A DNA stretch of 64,000 nt from Methanocalculus alkaliphilus (GCF_024170505.1 NZ_JALJYG010000005.1:1-64000); one strand, 5' to 3'. Positions 2,990-28,281 are shown, numbered from the stretch's first letter. Translations and numbers: made by a program. Notes: a model not told the origin generated them from the letters alone.

Positions 2990-3781
2990 TTACAGTATAA
3001 CTATCACTTTTACAGTATAACTATCACTTTCGTTATGTAAATCAAGGTAATTCGATCCATCAACTGCCAGCAGAATCGGGAATAGTGAGCGAAGGAAATC
3101 AAAAAAATCCGGAACCGATGTCCTCTGGAATGCATTTAAACACCAGTGATTCAATTCCAGGACAACCAGAGGCATAAAGTTTGAAAGCGTCTGCTTACCC
3201 CCACGAAGAACATGTTCCTCAAATCCCTCGACATCGATTTTAATAAAGTCAATCTGTTGTAACTGAAGTGAGTTAACAACCTCGTCTAAGGTTTTAATAA
3301 CAATCTTTTCGACGATGTGGCCAGTACTCGCCTGTGTCTGGTTCGAAACAAAGCCACCGGATCGATTCGACGGTGCGAATGTTAGGGTAGATTCTCCCGA
3401 CTCCGATCCAAGTCCAATATTGTGAAGTATTATATTTGAATGCCCTGATTGGATGATATTTTGTTCAAGGAATCGAAACGTTGTTTGGGATGGTTCAAAT
3501 GCATATACATTCTCCGATAACTCTCCAAAAAGGATGGCAGTACAACCTATATTAGCACCTATGTCAAAAATTACTGTACTATCCTTTGCCAAATGTTTAA
3601 AAAGCTCTACCATTTCCGGCTCAAAGCAATTGCGTATATGCTCAAGATAATCATCATCTGATGCGATTGTATATTCCTTTCCGCCTATGTCAACTTTCAC
3701 TTCGCTTATCTGCCTATTCTCGTGTTTTTGTGAGATGAGATCGCCAATTTTCTGGTTTATTAATTCCAATATTTTCGCCAT
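2990..3781 (-). CDS. FkbM-family SAM methyltransferase, C-terminus truncated
   Basis: FkbM-type O-methyltransferase, likely to methylate a sugar or acceptor in glycan synthesis. The SAM site is seen as VIFDIGANIGCTAILFGE, followed by YAFEPSQ and the family segment DFIKIDVEGFEEHVLRGG. I prefer the ATG at 3781 (263 residues): a GGAGGT ribosome binding site lies 10 nt upstream. An ATG at 3814 overlapping the upstream stop (ATGA) would add 11 residues. The 3' end carries a perfect 20-bp tandem repeat (2991-3010 and 3011-3030). It shifts the frame so the protein ends in KVIVIL; with one repeat unit the frame would continue 34 codons to a stop at 2886-2888. The core fold is present, so activity may survive. 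Confidence 0.82.
   Translation of the reverse strand: MAKILELINQKIGDLISQKHENRQISEVKVDIGGKEYTIASDDDYLEHIRNCFEPEMVELFKHLAKDSTVIFDIGANIGCTAILFGELSENVYAFEPSQTTFRFLEQNIIQSGHSNIILHNIGLGSESGESTLTFAPSNRSGGFVSNQTQASTGHIVEKIVIKTLDEVVNSLQLQQIDFIKIDVEGFEEHVLRGGKQTLSNFMPLVVLELNHWCLNAFQRTSVPDFFDFLRSLFPILLAVDGSNYLDLHNESDSYTVKVIVIL
2991..3030. repeat. Perfect 20-bp tandem duplication in fkbM 3' end
   Basis: Two identical 20-bp units, 2991-3010 and 3011-3030, lie head to tail with no spacer at the 3' end of the minus-strand FkbM gene. Because 20 is not a multiple of three, the second copy changes the frame and creates the present stop codon at 2990-2992. It looks like a recent slippage event. Confidence 0.9.
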
Positions 3782-3810: not shown

Positions 3811-6800
3811 TCATTTTACGTTTTCAAACAATGGAACCTTATGAGAAAAGGCCATTGTTGAGTGTTTCTGAATTGAAGCTATAATATTCATCAATCGTTT
3901 TGACAATGAACTCCATTGGTGTTGCTCTATCCATTTTAATTGAGCGTCAGAGTGTATGTGCGTCTTCTGTAGAGAAGATATGATTCCAAGTGCAATCGAT
4001 TCATGATCAGTTCCGGAGAGGTAGTAAATTATGGGTGCAACATCGTTAAATGTGATCAGGGGTGTGCAAAGGACTGGCTTTCCGGATGCCAGTCCGAGTC
4101 TCACGGCGTTACTTGATGCCTTATGTGCATACTGATAAGGATATACAATCACGTCAGACAGTGACAGAAGTGCAAGGGAATCTCTATCTTCCAAGTAATT
4201 GGTTATCAGTGTAATGTGAGCCTCAAGATTGAGATCCTGAATAAGAGATCGACATTCCTCAAGCAATGACAACGATTCCTGACTGGATACTGTAGTGCTA
4301 ATGAGCAACAGATGAGATTCTGGAATCTGGTTATGGACTATTTTAAATGCATATAATAATTCGGTAATACCTTTATATGGTAATATATGGCCATATGATG
4401 CTATGATTTTTTTCTCTTGCAGATCCATATCTCTCTTCAGATTCTTTATATCAACAGATGGACATTCATCAACTCCATGAGGGAAAAGTGCCGTATTACA
4501 AATAATTCCATATTCTTTGAGCTGATTTAAATCATTGACACAGTGAACAAAAATTCTCTGGACTTTTCTCAGTGATTCACCAATACTCCTAAGTGAAACA
4601 TTGTTGCCAGGATCATTATAATCTACAGTGGAATGCATTATTATGATGATAGCAACATCTTTCTCTGAAAGAGAATCAATGAATTTTCCGAATATACCAA
4701 TATCAAAGAAGCCAAATTCAAAATGTATTAACAAAATATCAATATTTTTTGATACAACTTCAGAATATAATGAATCTAGGGAAGAATTGGGTATATTGTT
4801 CCAGTAATGGATAGCTTGATGTTGATCGTCTGATGGTTGAACTGGGGGAGTATTTGAAAAGACGGTTACATGAAATAAGGCAGGATCGAAAGAGTGTAAT
4901 AGAGAACCTGAATATTTCGCAACCTGTTTTTTTGTCCCCCAGCCAGAGACCCATCCGAGCCGAATCCTGTCCCCTGGTTTGCTTTCAGATGAATCAAGGG
5001 CATGGACAAACTGATCAAGTCGTCTGGCACACTGATTCCATGTATATTGTTCTTGAATGGTTTCCTTTGCCCGTTTGGTTTTTTTCTGAATGAGATCGGG
5101 AGATTGGGAAGCGATCTCCTTCATAAGTGTGGCCAGATGTTCTGCATCCGGTTCAACCCAGACAGAATCGTTCAGCCCGATATGAGTCTCTGCATAAGCA
5201 AATGAATAGTCAATGAGCCATGCATTGTCTTTATCAGCAAAATCAAGCTGCCCTCCATAACCTGTAATAATAACTGGTAAACCAAACAACATAGCTTCTG
5301 CAAATGGGAGTCCAAAGCCCTCCCCTCTGGATGGACCAACATACGCATTGCATCTTTTGTAAAGATTTATAATATACCCATAGTCTAGATCCTCATCGAT
5401 CAAAATGATATTCGGACAACTTTTCATATTCTTTCTATAATGGTGAACTTGATTTGAAACGGTATTCAGATAATGTGGAACTGTTTTAATAATCAGGGTT
5501 ACATCATCCAGATTTGTAAATGCCATCGTGTATGCCTTTAAAAGCACATCAATACCTTTTCTGGGAAATCCAGACGATATATGGAGAAAGCGAAAGCCTT
5601 TACCAAGATTTTTATAATATTGCTTCTCTTTCACAGTTAAACAATGATCAACACCAATTCCCATGGTTATTATGGGTAAAGATACACCATTACTGATCAA
5701 TAACTGGGTGACATAGTCTGACATTGTGGCAATGCCATCAAGATGTGCATAAAAACCATCAATATATTCACCTGGAAAACCTGACTCTTCCCACCCATAA
5801 CTACCTAAGATGTTAATAGTTCCTTTCATATTGGAAACACGCGGAGGATAGAGATTTCTGATCACCGCATGAACATCTTGATTTGCTTTTCCTAAATCCC
5901 ACATTTTTTGAATATCTTTTGGTAGCGGATTATTTGAAGGGTTATAATCCCCAAGACCGTCTGTAGAATGGAGAGTTACCTTATCAGGATATGTACCGTT
6001 CAAAGCTCGTGCAATCTCCCTGTTTACCATGGCAAGACTATAGCTGCTATCAAAGGGACCTTCTATTTGGTATTGAATTGAATCTGAATTCATATTTTGA
6101 ATAAATTCATCAGGATAACAAGGGATATGAATATGGTTATTCTTGAAAAATGTTATTAACTTCTGGATGATAGAGGAAAGAGAGTATGACCGAAGGTGTT
6201 GCCGTTGCCGTTCAATGATTCTTCTTCGAATATTCTTATTTTGTGCAATATATTCTATTAATGAGGCTATTTCAAGATGGTTTTTTGTATTTAATAATAA
6301 ACCTGAGTTTCCAAGTGTATAGGGAATGTTACTGGAGTTGTAGGCAATGACCGGAACATCAAATACCATCGCTTCAATAAGGGGGACGCCAAAGCCTTCA
6401 TGTTCACTCATGGATACGAAGAGATCAGCTAACCGATAATATCCATATAAATCTTCTTCCGAAACCTTTCCAGTAAGATGAACAATCTCTGAAAGACCAT
6501 ATCGATCGACACTCTTTTTAAGTTCCTGATAATAGGGATCATTATGTTCATATCCCCCAACAAGATGGATTTTAAAAGGGATAGGAAATAGTGAACGAAG
6601 ATAGTTGGCAACTATTACCAAATCATGCTGGCATTTATTGGGGGAAATTCGTCCAACGAATAATACATTAAAATAATAAGAGTTCTTTACTTCAATCTCC
6701 TGATTCCAATTCTTCTTCAGAATATCATCAATATTTATAAGAAGCGGGATTACTGTTGTATCTTTATAACCAAGCCCAATTAATTCCTCTTCATTAATGT

Positions 6801-17841: not shown

Positions 17842-18567
17842 TCACTGCACCGGGACCTTCGCCTCTATTGTATATGATTCGATGAGCCGGCTCTCGATGA
17901 TCAGGTAGTAGCTCCGTCCCCCTTCAAGGAAGCTCTCCTTCCAGGGGCGGGGATCGTTGTTGCTCCAGAGTCGTTCGTCGATGATCCCGCCCCCTGCCGG
18001 GTCGATGGTACGGACGACCCGGTTTGGATCCTCGGCATCCATCACGGTGATGATGAACCGGGGATAGCCGACCGACTGGCCGGATCCGGTCGGGAGGACC
18101 GATGGATTAACAGTGTACCAGAGCTCCCACCGGGGGGAGGGGATCTCAAACACCTGGGATGCCCCGCTCCACCGCCCTTCAATCGTTGCAAATGTCTGAA
18201 GGGTCACCTCCCGGTCATCCGTCTCGATGGGGCGCCGTGCCGGGATCGAGCTATCCGGCCGTGTCAGGTGATAGGTGCCGGGATCGACGTACCCAAGCCG
18301 GATCGGCTGGCCATCCCAGACCTGTGCCATCGTACCCTTGGTACTCGCCGCCTGAACCGTCGACGGGTGGGGGATACTGATCTGCCCAAGCGGCACTGCT
18401 GTCGGCGGGGGGGTCACCACCGCCTGCGGGCCGCGCTCCCCCGCGCCCGGCATCGGCGGAATGCTGAAATCAGGGCTTTCGCCGGTGACCATCGGATTGA
18501 TAACAACGGCAATGATGACCACGAAGACGAGCCCGCCGATGAATGTCATGATATCCTGTTTATCCAT
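17842..18567 (-). CDS. Membrane-anchored extracytoplasmic protein of unknown function
   Basis: A 241-residue protein with one N-terminal membrane segment (about 9-27, IMTFIGGLVFVVIIAVVINP) after a short charged start, then a Pro-rich linker and a soluble, probably beta-rich domain expected outside the cell. I take the ATG at 18567 because an AGGAGGT box lies 7 nt upstream; an upstream in-frame ATG at 18627 has no such site. No catalytic motif is recognised. The C-terminal domain includes RSYYLIIESRLIESYTIE. It is transcribed away from the archaellin genes; the two start codons are 188 nt apart, so they may share a regulatory region. A role as a pilin-like or archaellum-associated cell-envelope component is only a guess from context. 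Confidence 0.7.
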   Translation of the reverse strand: MDKQDIMTFIGGLVFVVIIAVVINPMVTGESPDFSIPPMPGAGERGPQAVVTPPPTAVPLGQISIPHPSTVQAASTKGTMAQVWDGQPIRLGYVDPGTYHLTRPDSSIPARRPIETDDREVTLQTFATIEGRWSGASQVFEIPSPRWELWYTVNPSVLPTGSGQSVGYPRFIITVMDAEDPNRVVRTIDPAGGGIIDERLWSNNDPRPWKESFLEGGRSYYLIIESRLIESYTIEAKVPVQ

Positions 18568-18675
18568 GATTTGGCAAACCTCCTGTTGTATACACGGCTT
18601 TAAAGATCCTCCAATAAGTACTATCATGGAGAGAAAAGCAATCGTAATGATTCATGTAACTCCGTATGATAGATA

Positions 18676-18690: not shown

Positions 18691-18755
18691 GCACATACAA
18701 AGATGAGTAAGAATGTTGGGAAGACCCAGCGTTCAACATTAAAAGGTGATTGAAA

Positions 18756-19310
18756 ATGACGTTACGAAGAAATGAGGATGCCTTCACCGGCCTTGAGGCC
18801 GCAATCGTTCTGATTGCGTTCATCGTGGTCGCTGCGGTCTTCTCGTATGTTATGCTCGGCGCAGGGTTCTTCACAACCCAGAAGAGCCAGGAGACGGTCT
18901 ACTCCGCTATCGGACAGGCTGGTACGAATATGGAGGTCTCCGGACCGGTTATTCTAGAAACAAACACTGATTCACAAGTGAAGAGTGTGGCCTTTACACT
19001 TATCCTTGCTGCAGGCGGGATGCCGGTTGACATGAAGAGGGTGACCTATACAGTCTCCACTCAGACAAGCATTGATGATCTGACATTAAATGATGCTGCT
19101 GTTGATATGAGTAAGCACAACGCTAATGACAACGATCTCCTTGAGCGGGGGGAGATAGCGGAAATTACGATAACCGGCTCTAGTGTCGGAAATATAAAAG
19201 CAAATCTCCCGTTCACCATTGAAGTGAAACCCTCAACCGGAGCTGCACTCCCGATTACCCGGTTTGCACCACTCTCATTTGGGAAGAACGCTTTTTATGA
19301 GGTCTACTGA
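18756..19310 (+). CDS. arlB: Archaellin (archaellum filament subunit) 1
   Basis: Major filament protein of the archaellum, 184 residues. The N-terminus MTLRRNEDAFTG/LEAAIVLIAF has the class III signal: basic residues, then Gly-Leu-Glu at the prepilin-type cleavage site, followed by the hydrophobic helix that packs in the filament core. The rest is the variable surface beta domain. I start at the ATG 18756 with AGGTGAT 5 nt upstream, not at an in-frame TTG at 18750. I see no N-X-S/T sequon here. The paralogous archaellin follows immediately with a nearly identical first 45 residues. No preflagellin peptidase gene is in the window. Confidence 0.93.
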   Translation: MTLRRNEDAFTGLEAAIVLIAFIVVAAVFSYVMLGAGFFTTQKSQETVYSAIGQAGTNMEVSGPVILETNTDSQVKSVAFTLILAAGGMPVDMKRVTYTVSTQTSIDDLTLNDAAVDMSKHNANDNDLLERGEIAEITITGSSVGNIKANLPFTIEVKPSTGAALPITRFAPLSFGKNAFYEVY

Positions 19311-19321
19311 AGGTGATTATG

Positions 19322-19930
19322 ATGAAAAGAAGAAATGATAATGCATTTACCGGCCTTGAAGCTGCTATCGTCCTGATCGCCTTCGTCGTCGTCGCCGCAG
19401 TCTTCTCATATGTGATGCTCGGTGCAGGATTCTTCACTGCACAGAAGAGCCAGGAGGTTGTTCACACAGGTATCGGCCAGGCATCATCCAGCATTGAAGT
19501 TGTCGGCGATGTGTATGGAATTGCTCAAACTGGAGCAACATATTTGGATACAGTTCGATTCAGCATTGGCCTGACATCAGGCATGTCGCCAATGAACATC
19601 TCCGCTATGAGAGTTCACTATACGGATGCAACAGCGAGACATCAAATAACATTTAATAATGATAAATCCGTTACAGCAACTTTAATTGATGGGGAAACAC
19701 CTGATACTGGGTGGGTTATCAAAAGAGTTGAGAACAGAGATACCGCTATCAACGAGCCTAAGGACAGAGTACTCAGACCGGGAGAGAAGTTCCTCCTTGA
19801 GATGAAGGTGCCAACCTCAGCAACACCAAATACCCGGTTTACAATAACCATGCAACCCGAGGTTGGGGCACTGACAACCATTATCCGGACAGTTCCAGCA
19901 TCGATCTACCCGGTGAACGTTCTCAGGTAA
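19322..19930 (+). CDS. arlB: Archaellin (archaellum filament subunit) 2
   Basis: Second filament subunit, 202 residues. The processing site is FTG/LEAAIVLIAF with the same hydrophobic helix as archaellin 1; the outer domain differs and is about 20 residues longer. One N-glycosylation sequon (N-I-S, near residue 92) is present in the outer domain, so this copy is the likelier target for the glycans made nearby. The ATG at 19322 lies 4 nt after an AGGTGAT box; ATG 19319 is an alternative. It is 11 nt downstream of archaellin 1 and followed by a T-rich stretch, so the two probably form a short transcript distinct from the motor operon. Confidence 0.93.
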   Translation: MKRRNDNAFTGLEAAIVLIAFVVVAAVFSYVMLGAGFFTAQKSQEVVHTGIGQASSSIEVVGDVYGIAQTGATYLDTVRFSIGLTSGMSPMNISAMRVHYTDATARHQITFNNDKSVTATLIDGETPDTGWVIKRVENRDTAINEPKDRVLRPGEKFLLEMKVPTSATPNTRFTITMQPEVGALTTIIRTVPASIYPVNVLR

Positions 19931-20137: not shown

Positions 20138-20965
20138 ATGGCAGTAGATCAGTCTCAGGTCGACAGCATTCTGGCGAGCGCCTCCGCCGATGATCCCGAG
20201 GTGAAACTGCAGAACCTGGAGCGGGAGGTGGAGCTCCTCAAAAAGTCGATCAAGAAGCTGTTGATCGACATCAGGGAGCGGCTCAACGAGGGGGACAACC
20301 CCCTGACCGTCCTTGCACAGGGGGGGGGCGGCGAGGTGATCGCCGGCCTCACCGCAGACGATGCCGCCCGCCTCGAAGAGCTTGAGGCGAGGGTGGCAGA
20401 GCTCTTTGAGTTCCGCGAGATGGTGGAGCTTGAAGAGGAGGAGAAGCCGAAGAGATCAAAGAAGAGACCTGAGACTGACGATTACCCTGAGGCACAGCCT
20501 GCCCCTCCCCTCCCCCAGCTGCCAAACCCGATGATGCCGGAGACCCCGTCTGCCAGCCAGAAGAAAGAGTCCGGTGATGAGAAGCTCTGCCTCCAGAAAG
20601 TCTATCATCTCTTCAACTGGACGAAGGCCGCCATCACGAAATACGGCCATGATCGGCTTGATATCATGCTCGACAGCTACCGTTCCATCGGGTACATCAC
20701 CAAGGAGGCGGCAGACGAGGTAAAAGAGATCGCACGGATCATGCCCGCCTCACTCGGCGAGGAGCATGAGGTCGGGGCAGACGAGTTCGTCTCAGAGCTC
20801 TATATTCTTAACCGAATCATGGAACCCGACGACACCTCACTCGATCGCGACATGATCGCCGTGATGATGGAGCGGGATTCGAAGAAGGGTCTTTCAAAGA
20901 AATCCGGGCTATCGAAGAGAGAAGAGATCGGGGAGGAGTGGGCGCACCTGATCGATAAAATATAA
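20138..20965 (+). CDS. Archaellum accessory protein ArlD/E-like
   Basis: Cytoplasmic archaellum protein of the FlaC/D/E group, 275 residues, part of the ring that links the motor to the chemotaxis adaptor CheF. Residues about 20-50 (LQNLEREVELLKKSIKKLL) form a coiled coil typical of FlaC; an acidic, proline-rich linker covers about 100-150; the C-terminal domain (about 160-275) has the FlaD/E signature LFNWTKAAITKYGHDRLDIMLDSYRSIGYIT. One gene thus seems to serve for the separate C, D and E genes of other archaea. It is the first gene of the operon, 40 nt upstream of arlG, and likely translated from a leaderless start. Confidence 0.82.
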   Translation: MAVDQSQVDSILASASADDPEVKLQNLEREVELLKKSIKKLLIDIRERLNEGDNPLTVLAQGGGGEVIAGLTADDAARLEELEARVAELFEFREMVELEEEEKPKRSKKRPETDDYPEAQPAPPLPQLPNPMMPETPSASQKKESGDEKLCLQKVYHLFNWTKAAITKYGHDRLDIMLDSYRSIGYITKEAADEVKEIARIMPASLGEEHEVGADEFVSELYILNRIMEPDDTSLDRDMIAVMMERDSKKGLSKKSGLSKREEIGEEWAHLIDKI

Positions 20966-24625: not shown

Positions 24626-26242
24626 ATGTTTGAGAATGTTGTTGACCGTCTCCGCGAGAGCAATAATGGCAAACTCCCATTTGAGGATCTCTTTGGGAAG
24701 ATCTATGACAGGATCAACCGGGTCTTTGAAGAGCGGAGGATGGTCTCTGATATCCTCTTCATGGTCACCTATATGAACTCGCTTGCCATCGCCCGTGCCT
24801 CGCGTCCCGAGATCTTTGCGGCCACTGCTGAACGGAAGGAGTATGCCCCCGCCAGAGCCATCAGGAAGGTGGAGTTCTTCGTCAAGCGCTGGGGGTACAG
24901 CTATGTTCAGTCACTATCGATTGTTGCAGAAAGGACAGATAATGATGTCCTCCGAACACTCCTCAACAGGTTTGCAAACTCGATGGAGTCGGGGGTGCCT
25001 GACGAGGACTTCCTTGACGGTGAGATCTCCTCATCGATGGAGATCTTCAGAAACAACCAGGACAGCGGATTTGAGCTCCTGAAGAAATGGGGGGATGCCT
25101 ACATCGCGATGCTCCTCTCTGCGGTCGTTATTGCCGTCACTATCATGATCTCGGTTGCGATCTATTCACCGGGCGAGGTGAAGGAGACGCTCTCGATCAC
25201 TTACTGGATCATCATCCTCATCTCCCTCTTCGGAATAGGTACGATGTTTCAGACTGTGCCAACTGATGAGCGTGTGTATAAATCTGAGGAATGGTTATCA
25301 AAAGAGCAGGGGATGATCGCCCGGATGGAGAAGATCGTCCTTCCGGTAACGGTGGCTGCATGGCTCCTCACATGGGCAGCAGGGGTCCAGGCAGGGGTCA
25401 TCTTCATGCTTGTTGGCATCATGCTCGCCCCGCTTGGTATTCTTGCCTATATCGACAACAAAAATGTCATCGCCCGCGATGAGGAGTTTCCGAACTTCAT
25501 CCGTGGTGTCGGGTCAATCATGGGAGGGAAGGGGGGAACCATGTCCCAGGCACTCGCTGAGATCGACAAAAAGTCGATGGTGAACCTTTCGCCGCATATG
25601 CTCTCCGTCTTCTCAAAGCTCAACCTCGGCTTAAATGAAGAGCTCTCATGGAGAAAGTTCGTTGGCGAATGTGGGAGCAACTTCATCTACAAGTACTTAA
25701 ATATCTTCCGTGATACCGTCAATATGGGCGGGGACTCAAAGAAGATCGGAACAGTCGTCGCCGATTCCATGCTTGAGCAGGTGCTGATGAGGAAGAAGCG
25801 TGAGATGATCAGCATGGGATTCATCGTTCTGCTGGTTCCGATGCATGCGGCGATGGCCGGCATCTTCATTGCACTCTATCAGATCCTGGTCACCCTCTCC
25901 CGTGCCATCACCGAGGTGATGGGGACCTTTGATGCAGCATCCGCTGCACTTTCTGAATCAACAGCTTCACCGCTTGGCGGGATGGGCGGAGGATCCCTTG
26001 GGATATTCGTCGACTTCCCCGAGGCGATCGTCGGGGCGTATGTTGTCAATATCCTCATCATCATCTGCATATCAAACGTCATCGTCGCAAAACTTGCCGT
26101 CGGAGGGGACAGAAGTGTCGCCTATCCCTTTGCAGCCCTGATGCTCTTCATCACAGGGGTGCTCTTCATGGTGATCCCGCCGGTTATTGAGGTCTTCTTC
26201 AGCATGGAAGGGCTTGTTTCAACAGGAGGAGGAGTATTATAA
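24626..26242 (+). CDS. arlJ: Archaellum membrane platform protein ArlJ
   Basis: Polytopic inner-membrane platform of the archaellum, 538 residues, homologous to type II secretion F proteins. About nine hydrophobic segments are visible: a pair near 155-205, a pair near 235-280, and several in the last 200 residues. Cytoplasmic segments carry the conserved FPNFIRGVGSIMGGKGGTM loop of the T2SSF fold, thought to be pushed by ArlI. Its stop overlaps the next start (TAATG), tying the following unknown membrane protein to the archaellum operon. Confidence 0.93.
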   Translation: MFENVVDRLRESNNGKLPFEDLFGKIYDRINRVFEERRMVSDILFMVTYMNSLAIARASRPEIFAATAERKEYAPARAIRKVEFFVKRWGYSYVQSLSIVAERTDNDVLRTLLNRFANSMESGVPDEDFLDGEISSSMEIFRNNQDSGFELLKKWGDAYIAMLLSAVVIAVTIMISVAIYSPGEVKETLSITYWIIILISLFGIGTMFQTVPTDERVYKSEEWLSKEQGMIARMEKIVLPVTVAAWLLTWAAGVQAGVIFMLVGIMLAPLGILAYIDNKNVIARDEEFPNFIRGVGSIMGGKGGTMSQALAEIDKKSMVNLSPHMLSVFSKLNLGLNEELSWRKFVGECGSNFIYKYLNIFRDTVNMGGDSKKIGTVVADSMLEQVLMRKKREMISMGFIVLLVPMHAAMAGIFIALYQILVTLSRAITEVMGTFDAASAALSESTASPLGGMGGGSLGIFVDFPEAIVGAYVVNILIIICISNVIVAKLAVGGDRSVAYPFAALMLFITGVLFMVIPPVIEVFFSMEGLVSTGGGVL

Positions 26243-27456
26243 TGAAAGATTCAGTACGGAGGGCAATCCTCTTCTTGGGAACGGTCAGCATCGGAACATT
26301 CTTTGTCTTTGTCCAGCTTCCGGTCATCTACATCCTGCTTGTGACATTCGTCCTCGGCGTCTTCCTCCTCTTCCTGACCGGGGCGCTCACTCTCTCGGAT
26401 CTCCGTCTGAGGAGGGCGAAGGCAGAAGAACAGATAGACGAGCCGGAGATCCCTCCGGGTCCTGGCTGGCGGGAGAAATTTGAGGAGAAGATGCCCTCCT
26501 TCTACCGGGGGTTCCAAAAGATTGAGGCTGCGGCCGCACCCCTTGGGCGGGCTGCAGGCGCAGTCAAAGCCCGGTTCAGGCGTTCAAAGAAAGAGGAGGC
26601 GCCGGTGGCGGCAACTCCCGCAACAGAGAGGAAACCCCTCTTTGGAGGGCTTCGGGAGCGCCTCGCCCGGCTCCGCCCGGGAAGAAAGGAGGAGGCCGCA
26701 CCTGCCGTCTCCGGGCCTGGTGGGACACCGGGGAAGGCATCTCCCCGTGACGAGGCGCTTGCCGCAGCCGGGGCGATCGCGGCATCCGGTGTACAGCAGG
26801 GATCCGGTGACAAAGCCGACGATGTATTCGGAGATATCTCCCTTGACGAGCTTGATGATGACGTCTTCGCAGAACTTGACGGCGAGATGGAGATGGACGC
26901 TCCACTCCCTGATCCCGATAGTGACGAGGGGGTATCCTTCGATCCCGAATCCGCCTCATTCATGGATGATGCTGCCGCCATCCTTGCGCAGGAGGGGGCG
27001 CTGGATGATGAGGCATTCGATGCAGATGAACTCTCAACCGGGATGGATCTCGATAGCCTTGAGATCGATGAGGATCTCGATGAGATAGGCGATATCGATG
27101 CCGATCCGGAGAAGAGCACCCCGGCAGCCCCTGATACCGATGAGGAGGAGGAAGAGGATCAGGAGGAGGAGCAGCCGCAAACGGTTATCGCGGCCAATGA
27201 AGGCTACCAGTTCACACCCGATCAGGAACAGAAGGTACCGGACTTTGGGGCACTCGGCGGGGGGAGCGATATGGATATCCTCAGTGCCCTCAAAGGTGAT
27301 GTCAAGACCGTCAAGAAAGAACTTGACCTCAGCCTCGTCCGGGATCTTAAGGATGTTGATGTCCGCGCCGAAGAGCTTGAGGATGAGCTTGAGATGGTGG
27401 TCAGACAGCTTGGCGGCAGGAAGGACGAGGAGCCCGCCCAGGAGTCAGAGGCATAA
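26242..27456 (+). CDS. Acidic membrane-anchored protein between arlJ and cheF, unknown function
   Basis: I do not recognise a named family. The 404-residue protein begins with two close hydrophobic helices (about 9-28 and 30-49, a hairpin), then a basic, Arg/Lys-rich segment (about 55-150), then a long acidic stretch rich in Asp/Glu (about 180-320) and a folded-looking C-terminus (about 335-390, helical: DILSALKGDVKTVKKELDLS). Topology suggests most of it is cytoplasmic. Its start overlaps the arlJ stop, and cheF follows after 21 nt, so it is made together with the motor and the chemotaxis adaptor. It might be a membrane scaffold between platform and switch, comparable in place to crenarchaeal ArlX, but I see no sequence proof. 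Confidence 0.75.
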   Translation: MKDSVRRAILFLGTVSIGTFFVFVQLPVIYILLVTFVLGVFLLFLTGALTLSDLRLRRAKAEEQIDEPEIPPGPGWREKFEEKMPSFYRGFQKIEAAAAPLGRAAGAVKARFRRSKKEEAPVAATPATERKPLFGGLRERLARLRPGRKEEAAPAVSGPGGTPGKASPRDEALAAAGAIAASGVQQGSGDKADDVFGDISLDELDDDVFAELDGEMEMDAPLPDPDSDEGVSFDPESASFMDDAAAILAQEGALDDEAFDADELSTGMDLDSLEIDEDLDEIGDIDADPEKSTPAAPDTDEEEEEDQEEEQPQTVIAANEGYQFTPDQEQKVPDFGALGGGSDMDILSALKGDVKTVKKELDLSLVRDLKDVDVRAEELEDELEMVVRQLGGRKDEEPAQESEA

Positions 27457-27477: not shown

Positions 27478-28281
27478 ATGGTAGAAGCACCTGTGAAGAT
27501 CCGGCATAATGACGGATGGATCAATTGTAAGATATCGCTTGAAGATGAGCAGATCATCATCCCGGCTCCGGTGAGCCAGACGATCCCGTTGAAGAGCATC
27601 GTCGATCTCCAGGAGAAGAAGAACACCCTCACGATCATTTTGAAGAATGCAACCGAGATTCGGCTCGTATCCGTTGAGAAGGTCCTCTTCGTCATCAAAC
27701 ACAGGATCCTGATGAAATGCAGCGCCTACCGGCTGATGGCATTCTTCATGTCCCCTGCGATCCGTGGCGGAGTGCTGATAACCAACGCCGTCTGGGAGAA
27801 GGGTGCGATCGTGGTCCTCAAGAGCGACATCTGGTTTGTCACCCAGAACAAGCAGATCTGTATCCCGCTCACCGATGTCTCGGGCATCGAGATGACGAAG
27901 CGGGAGGTCGATGAGAAGAAGCAGGATGTCGTCAGAATCGATCACCTTGAGGATCAGGGGCTTGTATCAAGCTTCGTCCTCACCCAGCTCTCGACACTGC
28001 AGATCCTCTACAGCTTCCTCTCCGAGATCACCGCAGGCCTCTCGGTCGAGGGGGCGGATCTCGACTCGATGGATCAGCAGATCGCGATGCTCGTCTATTC
28101 CGGGATGGATTCATCCACGATCCAGAACATGCTGCAACTCAAATTCAAGGATATCGATCGGATCTATGACAAACTGATCAACCTGAATATGGCCGAGGTC
28201 AAGGAGATCCGGCGTGAGATCCACCTGACCGCAAAAGGGGTCAGATACATCACAGAAGCCACGAAATCCGGTACGAATTGA
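27478..28281 (+). CDS. cheF: Archaeal chemotaxis adaptor CheF
   Basis: Euryarchaeal adaptor that joins phospho-CheY to the archaellum accessory ring, 267 residues. The N-terminal half (about 1-190) is made of beta-rich repeats with the family pattern INCKISLEDEQIIIP and WFVTQNKQICIPLTDVSGI. The C-terminal part (about 200-267) is a helix-turn-helix-like domain (IYDKLINLNMAEVKEIRREIHLTAKG). An AAGGAGA box lies just before the ATG. Its place between motor genes and cheY fits the known arlCDE-CheF-CheY chain. Confidence 0.9.
   Translation: MVEAPVKIRHNDGWINCKISLEDEQIIIPAPVSQTIPLKSIVDLQEKKNTLTIILKNATEIRLVSVEKVLFVIKHRILMKCSAYRLMAFFMSPAIRGGVLITNAVWEKGAIVVLKSDIWFVTQNKQICIPLTDVSGIEMTKREVDEKKQDVVRIDHLEDQGLVSSFVLTQLSTLQILYSFLSEITAGLSVEGADLDSMDQQIAMLVYSGMDSSTIQNMLQLKFKDIDRIYDKLINLNMAEVKEIRREIHLTAKGVRYITEATKSGTN

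Follow-up and report, generated by a model that had tools for sequence, protein, structure and literature searches.

A dedicated, membrane-anchored protein encoded beside arlJ in Methanomicrobiales, and its possible role as a flexible tether of the archaellum motor

Comparative analysis supports the view that a 404-residue protein of Methanocalculus alkaliphilus, encoded directly 3′ of the archaellum platform gene arlJ and labelled X in the following, is a membrane-anchored accessory protein dedicated to the archaellum and without a named family. Its best explanation is a flexible membrane tether of the motor, a general reading to which we give a probability of about 0.5 and in which we infer the binding partner and the mechanical role. 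The parts list of the archaellum, about ten proteins long, is treated as closed. A census of type IV pilus loci in archaea gives, in the portion drawn on here, seven universal archaellum components and cheF near the arl genes (PMC4858521); X is not discussed in that portion and may figure as an unnamed orthologous group in the supplementary tables of the census. Nor is X discussed in the literature searched, supplementary tables aside.

Results

The gene for X occupies positions 26242-27456 on the plus strand of the 64,000-nucleotide stretch analysed (GCF_024170505.1 NZ_JALJYG010000005.1:1-64000), here called the window. It is an open frame with an ATG start, and a search of its own genome returned one copy only. 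Directly 5′ lies arlJ (24626-26242, plus strand), identified by NF004703 with 645.9 bits against a cut-off of 570 in the NCBIfam scan. The TAA of arlJ at 26240-26242 and the ATG of X from 26242 share one base in the string TAATG at 26240-26244, and a ribosome-binding stretch, AGGAGGAGGAG, is located within the 3′ end of arlJ at 26224-26234 (plus strand), 7 nt 5′ of the ATG. The next gene 3′ of X is cheF (27478-28281, plus strand, PF04283), after a gap of 22 nt; the start overlapping the arlJ stop and the closely following cheF are thus as described in the earlier note. The genes 5′ of X are arlCDE, arlF, arlG, arlH, arlI and arlJ and those 3′ are cheF, cheY, cheB, cheA, cheC and cheD, of which cheY, cheB and cheA were assigned by reading the sequence. 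The arlCDE gene (20138-20965, plus strand, PF04659 above cut-off) encodes a single fused cytoplasmic ring protein with no apparent membrane segment in its sequence. The window also holds a tandem pair of archaellin genes with almost identical N-termini (18750-19930), and on the minus strand (17842-18627) a 261-amino-acid protein, divergent from the archaellin genes and with no Pfam or NCBIfam match.

Scans of the window protein and of family members gave no NCBIfam match, and a profile search of the PDB returned no solved structure at E ≤ 1. The sole Pfam match was to LapA_dom (PF06305), 27.9 bits against a cut-off of 28, and a LapA identity was rejected, the score lying 0.1 bit under the curated cut-off and only 2 of 32 members matching at E ≤ 0.01. 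The bacterial LapA_dom resembles X in having a two-helix membrane hairpin with a cytoplasmic region behind it but shares no C-terminus with it, and the match looks like generic hairpin similarity. PF04659 (ArlC/D/E) was absent from the window protein and 32 members at E ≤ 0.01, PF04283 was matched by the neighbour at 27478-28281 and not by X in the Pfam scan, neither LysM nor the FimV C-terminal domain was matched in the Pfam and NCBIfam scans including members, and no match bearing the name ArlX was returned by either database. That X corresponds to no standard archaellum component, as first noticed from the sequence, is in line with all of these searches.

A protein search in 60 relatives placed the X matches between arlJ and cheF, or after arlJ. 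When the 25-row alignment of X (A1) was used as a profile on 150 Methanomicrobiales genomes, X was found in 109 and ArlJ in 110; the sole ArlJ-only genome is a fragmented assembly with an ArlJ match of just 183 residues. X was on the contig and strand of arlJ and 3′ of it in 109/109 genomes, the ends of the two matches lying a median of 23 nt apart, and the single large distance (G121) is due to a partial match, the X frame there abutting arlJ. Across 142 loci, redundant copies included, the start of X overlaps or abuts the arlJ stop (-45 to +30 nt) in 98.6%. X was absent from the sampled genomes lacking ArlJ, including the sampled members of g2, the sister genus in the family of the window. 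The remaining in-order profile matches outside arl loci were few, all with E > 8e-4, and two weak matches outside arl loci from the phylum search (G212 and G436, the latter with no arl genes around it) were left out of the family. With homologues in 109 of 150 genomes, all just 3′ of arlJ, X is more than a chance open reading frame, and its homologues lie in arl operons rather than mostly outside them, as the reading in the earlier note requires, and fall in no named family.

The strict genetic coupling, with X starting at or within the arlJ stop, would also suit an assembly factor: X would stabilise ArlJ, or ArlI on ArlJ, in the membrane or position it there while the motor is built, and take no mechanical part in the finished motor. 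Platform stabilisers have a precedent in Sulfolobus, where ArlJ stability depends on ArlX (PMC8978795). Contact is not proven by gene order alone, however, and the very long arm and the conserved cytoplasmic module far from the membrane, described below, would be left unexplained, so that this role is considered unlikely.

Two loci carry an altered X gene. In the single-contig genome G033 (L189:2447-5640) an oppositely oriented gene for a DDE transposase (PF01609, 388 aa), flanked by 13-nt perfect inverted repeats at 3512-3524 and 5236-5248, cuts X just before the C-terminal module; this is a natural disruption. At G047:C1:1366007-1367208 X is apparently frameshifted into two open frames of 259 and 277 aa, and appears to be either a degraded gene or a sequencing error.

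The anatomy of X, with all features on the plus strand, begins with a two-helix membrane hairpin at residues 3-46 (26248-26379), predicted from AlphaFold (pLDDT 82-89), hydropathy and the marginal LapA_dom match, with both termini predicted to be cytoplasmic from the flanking basic residues. It is followed by a basic juxtamembrane region (residues 57-180, 26410-26781; net charge +8), mainly disordered in the model apart from a predicted helix at 86-113, and by an acidic disordered arm (residues 181-320, 26782-27201) with 53 D/E, 2 K/R and a net charge of -51. The arm carries three motifs. The first, DDVFGDISLDELD (residues 193-205, 26818-26856), was located from A1 and the Archaeoglobi alignment A2; it aligns with the DPF.AL and DPFQDL motifs of other members and is, judged by eye, possibly equivalent to NLLEEM of Archaeoglobi. 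The second, m3, is a short helix motif by alignment and AlphaFold, DDAAAILAQ (residues 242-250, 26965-26991; family form DVxxIL), and the third, m4, is MDLDSLEIDEDLDEI by alignment (residues 268-282, 27043-27087; family form DLDxxDLDEIE). A conserved two-helix module at residues 342-392 (27265-27417), with helices at 344-370 and 376-390, was delimited at the C-terminus from the alignment, profile comparison and AlphaFold.

The model of X was built from 32 sequences and has a short arm helix at 241-249 and a pLDDT of about 57-79 in the C-terminal helices. An Archaeoglobi model built from 8 sequences has one N-terminal helix, a helix at 36-59 bearing an IDxxL motif, a short helix at 84-91 (NLLEEMET) and C-terminal helices at 154-182 and 187-206 that match the two-helix module. 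Both are low in overall confidence and confident in isolated helices only, and they carry no information on partners. Most of the cytoplasmic part of X is predicted to be disordered and no folded ring-forming domain is predicted. The proposal of a scaffold beneath the platform therefore holds in so far as X is a membrane-anchored archaellum accessory protein, and fails in that its cytoplasmic part is mostly disordered by prediction and not a folded scaffold.

An N-terminal membrane anchor was found by hydropathy in 38/38 aligned members, as a hairpin in Methanomicrobiales and, from hydropathy and AlphaFold, as a single helix in Archaeoglobi, Methanocellales and Methanosarcinaceae. From the membrane to the C-terminal module the arm has a median of 278 residues among 52 scorable members (range 164-334), and a chain of this length in good solvent is estimated to span about 16 nm (rms), its contour being about 106 nm; the gap between membrane and polar cap in P. 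furiosus is about 35 nm (PMC5517150). The arm is acidic in most cases, but its D+E content ranges from 11% to about 50% across members while both ends stay conserved. At the loci L017 and L020, of genus g15 in which no chemotaxis genes were detected, the arm has 11% D+E and the anchor and the C-terminal module are intact. Acidity was for this reason dropped as a defining feature, and of the anatomy first described the hairpin, the basic stretch, the acidic stretch and the helical C-terminus stand, strong acidity as a fixed trait does not.

The plan of X resembles that of the bacterial polar landmark proteins FimV/HubP, with a membrane segment, a long acidic cytoplasmic region and a conserved helical C-terminus (PMC12918733). 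X might accordingly be a polar organiser or polar-cap component, its C-terminus recruiting positioning ATPases or the polar cap, and would then place archaella and chemoreceptor arrays at the pole; the polar cap, the composition of which is not known, always accompanies archaella in P. furiosus (PMC5517150). The combination of a membrane segment and an extended acidic region is nevertheless a trait of the window protein (181-320, net -51) and not of the whole family, acidity is dispensable, and no periplasmic LysM or FimV-type domain was matched. Unlike what would be expected of a general organiser, which should have other clients, X was found only beside arlJ and vanishes with it, and none was seen beside arlJ at the haloarchaeal loci examined although a haloarchaeal polar cap is reported (cited in PMC5517150). 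Such a function is rather unlikely.

Relatives beyond the order were sought by a phylum-wide profile search from which Thermococcales and Methanococcales were left out. Matches to the C-terminal module were obtained in families f9 and f14, the latter of which we infer to be Methanocellales (the Methanocella locus L136 has the same type of gene). In 9/9 fetched Archaeoglobi and Methanocellales loci with a C-terminal match the gene is 3′ of arlJ, at L074 about 640 nt off, and homologues with a membrane segment are found 3′ of arlJ in Methanosarcinaceae too. The module is the only part linking X to the homologues of Archaeoglobi and Methanocellales by profile comparison, with a probability of 96.9% (E 1.8e-10) for A1 against A2, 99% (E 7e-18) for A2 against A3, 94% (E 1e-7) for A2 against A4, 87% (E 3.8e-6) for A1 against A4 and, weakest, 55% (E 1.2e-4) for A1 against A3. 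Its consensus is DDLlssLk.Dvk..Kk..d.sLLRDLKg.k..AeeLe.ELee.L. These comparisons support homology of the module across Methanomicrobiales, Archaeoglobi and Methanocellales and, more weakly, Methanosarcinaceae, the direct link of which to the X of Methanomicrobiales is weaker than that of Archaeoglobi.

ArlCDE is well studied in haloarchaea. At 12 haloarchaeal arlJ loci the C-terminal profile found no relative, and at L089 a CheF-like frame directly follows arlJ. X is therefore not required for every ArlCDE ring. At five loci from some Methanosarcina and ANME-related genomes (L079:2970-3851, L080, L146, L148 and L168) arlJ is followed by a gene for a charged, soluble protein that has no membrane segment, and these genes were not accepted into the family, the C-terminal profile being not significant. 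A contig labelled Dehalococcoides sp. JdFR-54 has an arl cluster with a 160-aa protein after arlJ (L157:10203-10685), having a single membrane helix and an acidic central part; it is a possible bacterial counterpart of X and was kept out of the family since, at the same position, its C-terminal profile score was below significance. In P. furiosus a "hypothetical gene" follows arlJ (PMC10665913), and PF0329, after flaJ, is reported to lie outside the operon and not to be cotranscribed (PMC4263178). The reported position of PF0329 outside the operon may count against the tether reading, as may the post-arlJ genes without a membrane segment in some ANME-related and Methanosarcina loci.

The relation to chemotaxis was followed through the presence of cheF and the arm motifs. 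CheF is an archaellum-chemotaxis adaptor that docks on ArlCDE (PMC9126983), and its gene comes next after X in the window and in most Methanomicrobiales loci, as would be expected if X were mainly a chemotaxis adaptor coupling CheF or CheY-P to the motor. CheF itself is a soluble PH-domain dimer that has no sequence match to X, and X persists in genomes that yielded no CheF. Several lineages have a gene other than cheF next to X, in Archaeoglobi X and cheF are separated, and PF04283 was missing in 10 X-positive genomes. From these, G145 was withdrawn as a case without CheF, a CheF-like frame following X there, and G059 was not counted as lacking chemotaxis, an archaellum-type CheA being present (59%). 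No cheF and no CheA match whatever was found in the X-positive G138 (96% complete), and no cheF and only distant CheA matches elsewhere (32-35% identity) in the X-positive G034 and G042 (both 98% complete), the latter a single contig with convergent unrelated genes after X. X keeps the anchor and the C-terminal module in all three. Because X is kept in near-complete genomes that yielded neither cheF nor archaellum-type cheA, coupling to CheF or bridging of the platform to the switch, which the earlier note had entertained, cannot be its core role.

In a regular-expression search m3 was found in 76/84 and m4 in 77/84 cheF-adjacent members, with at least one in each, against shuffled-sequence rates of 0.17 and 0.20. 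Only 1/5 members from genomes without detected chemotaxis genes has them, namely G138, which keeps both, and both are lost in genera g15, g4 and g10, three of the four lineages without detected chemotaxis genes. The expressions were drawn from A1, and g4, g10 and G138 were examined afterwards; g15 is no independent test since A1 already held g15 sequences. The association gives a naive Fisher value of 2e-6 with ancestry ignored, the effective evidence being three losses and one exception. The motif counts favour an adaptor; the retention of X without chemotaxis genes, the separation from cheF in Archaeoglobi, the exception of G138 and the restriction of the association to about four lineages weigh against it, and an adaptor as the main function, already weakened, is very unlikely. 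A secondary link to chemotaxis through the arm motifs is possible.

Discussion

ArlCDE is the accepted counterpart of ArlX, which occurs instead of it; ArlX crosses the membrane with one helix and forms a ring of about 30 nm with its cytoplasmic domain. Like ArlX, X is encoded in the archaellum operon and combines a membrane anchor at the N-terminus with a cytoplasmic part, but the window protein has a hairpin and a disordered arm and coexists with ArlCDE. A diverged ArlX, to which the membrane anchor and the place in the arl operon might point, is highly improbable, since X co-occurs with the very protein that replaces ArlX, is anchored here by a hairpin and not by one helix, and has no ring-forming fold in the prediction. 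The suggestion that X fills the place of ArlX does not hold for the ring, which the operon already encodes as ArlCDE (20138-20965); what X would add is at most a membrane anchor, present in ArlX and absent from ArlCDE. ArlC/D/E are likewise accessory archaellum proteins of the same operon that co-occur with X, the difference being that they are soluble, folded ring proteins (PF04659). ArlX is stabilised by ArlJ (PMC8978795), and ArlCDE is described as having no membrane tether, unlike ArlX, in two recent reviews (PMC8978795, PMC12024892).

As a flexible membrane tether, X would be a dedicated subunit of the archaellum motor, its N-terminal anchor sitting in the cytoplasmic membrane near ArlJ and its disordered arm of roughly 160-330 residues extending into the cytoplasm. 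The C-terminal module would dock on the motor from the cytoplasm, the ArlCDE ring (or ArlH/ArlI beneath it) being the most probable site, and X would thereby give the ring the membrane anchorage that is built into ArlX and missing from ArlCDE. In chemotactic lineages the short acidic arm motifs may also recruit chemotaxis parts. This reading is favoured by the co-occurrence with ArlJ (109 against 110 of 150), the constant position beside arlJ, the C-terminal module shared with post-arlJ genes of other lineages, the anatomy predicted by the models, the conserved ends flanking a variable arm and the retention of X in genomes without detected cheF or archaellum-type cheA, and X has what would be expected of a tether, namely an anchor, a long disordered arm, a terminal docking module and a distribution that strictly follows the motor. 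Cryo-electron tomography of the P. furiosus motor revealed six narrow connections from the motor complex to the membrane (PMC5517150), and an X tether may account for such connections in tomograms. The more specific proposal, in which X provides the euryarchaeal ArlCDE ring with the membrane tether it lacks and the arm of X also serves chemotaxis parts as a docking strip, is advanced only tentatively; the docking partner may just as well be ArlH, ArlI, ArlJ or the polar cap.

X is a further protein that accompanies ArlJ in essentially every sampled archaellated Methanomicrobiales genome and has relatives in three other lineages. It offers a testable candidate for an acknowledged gap, namely what holds the tether-less ArlCDE ring for torque production, and the loss of m3 and m4 in lineages without detected chemotaxis genes suggests a docking place for chemotaxis parts. 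If the ArlCDE-specific proposal is true, what holds the ring to the membrane in methanogens and Archaeoglobi would be an intrinsically disordered arm with motifs and not a transmembrane helix of the ring protein itself.
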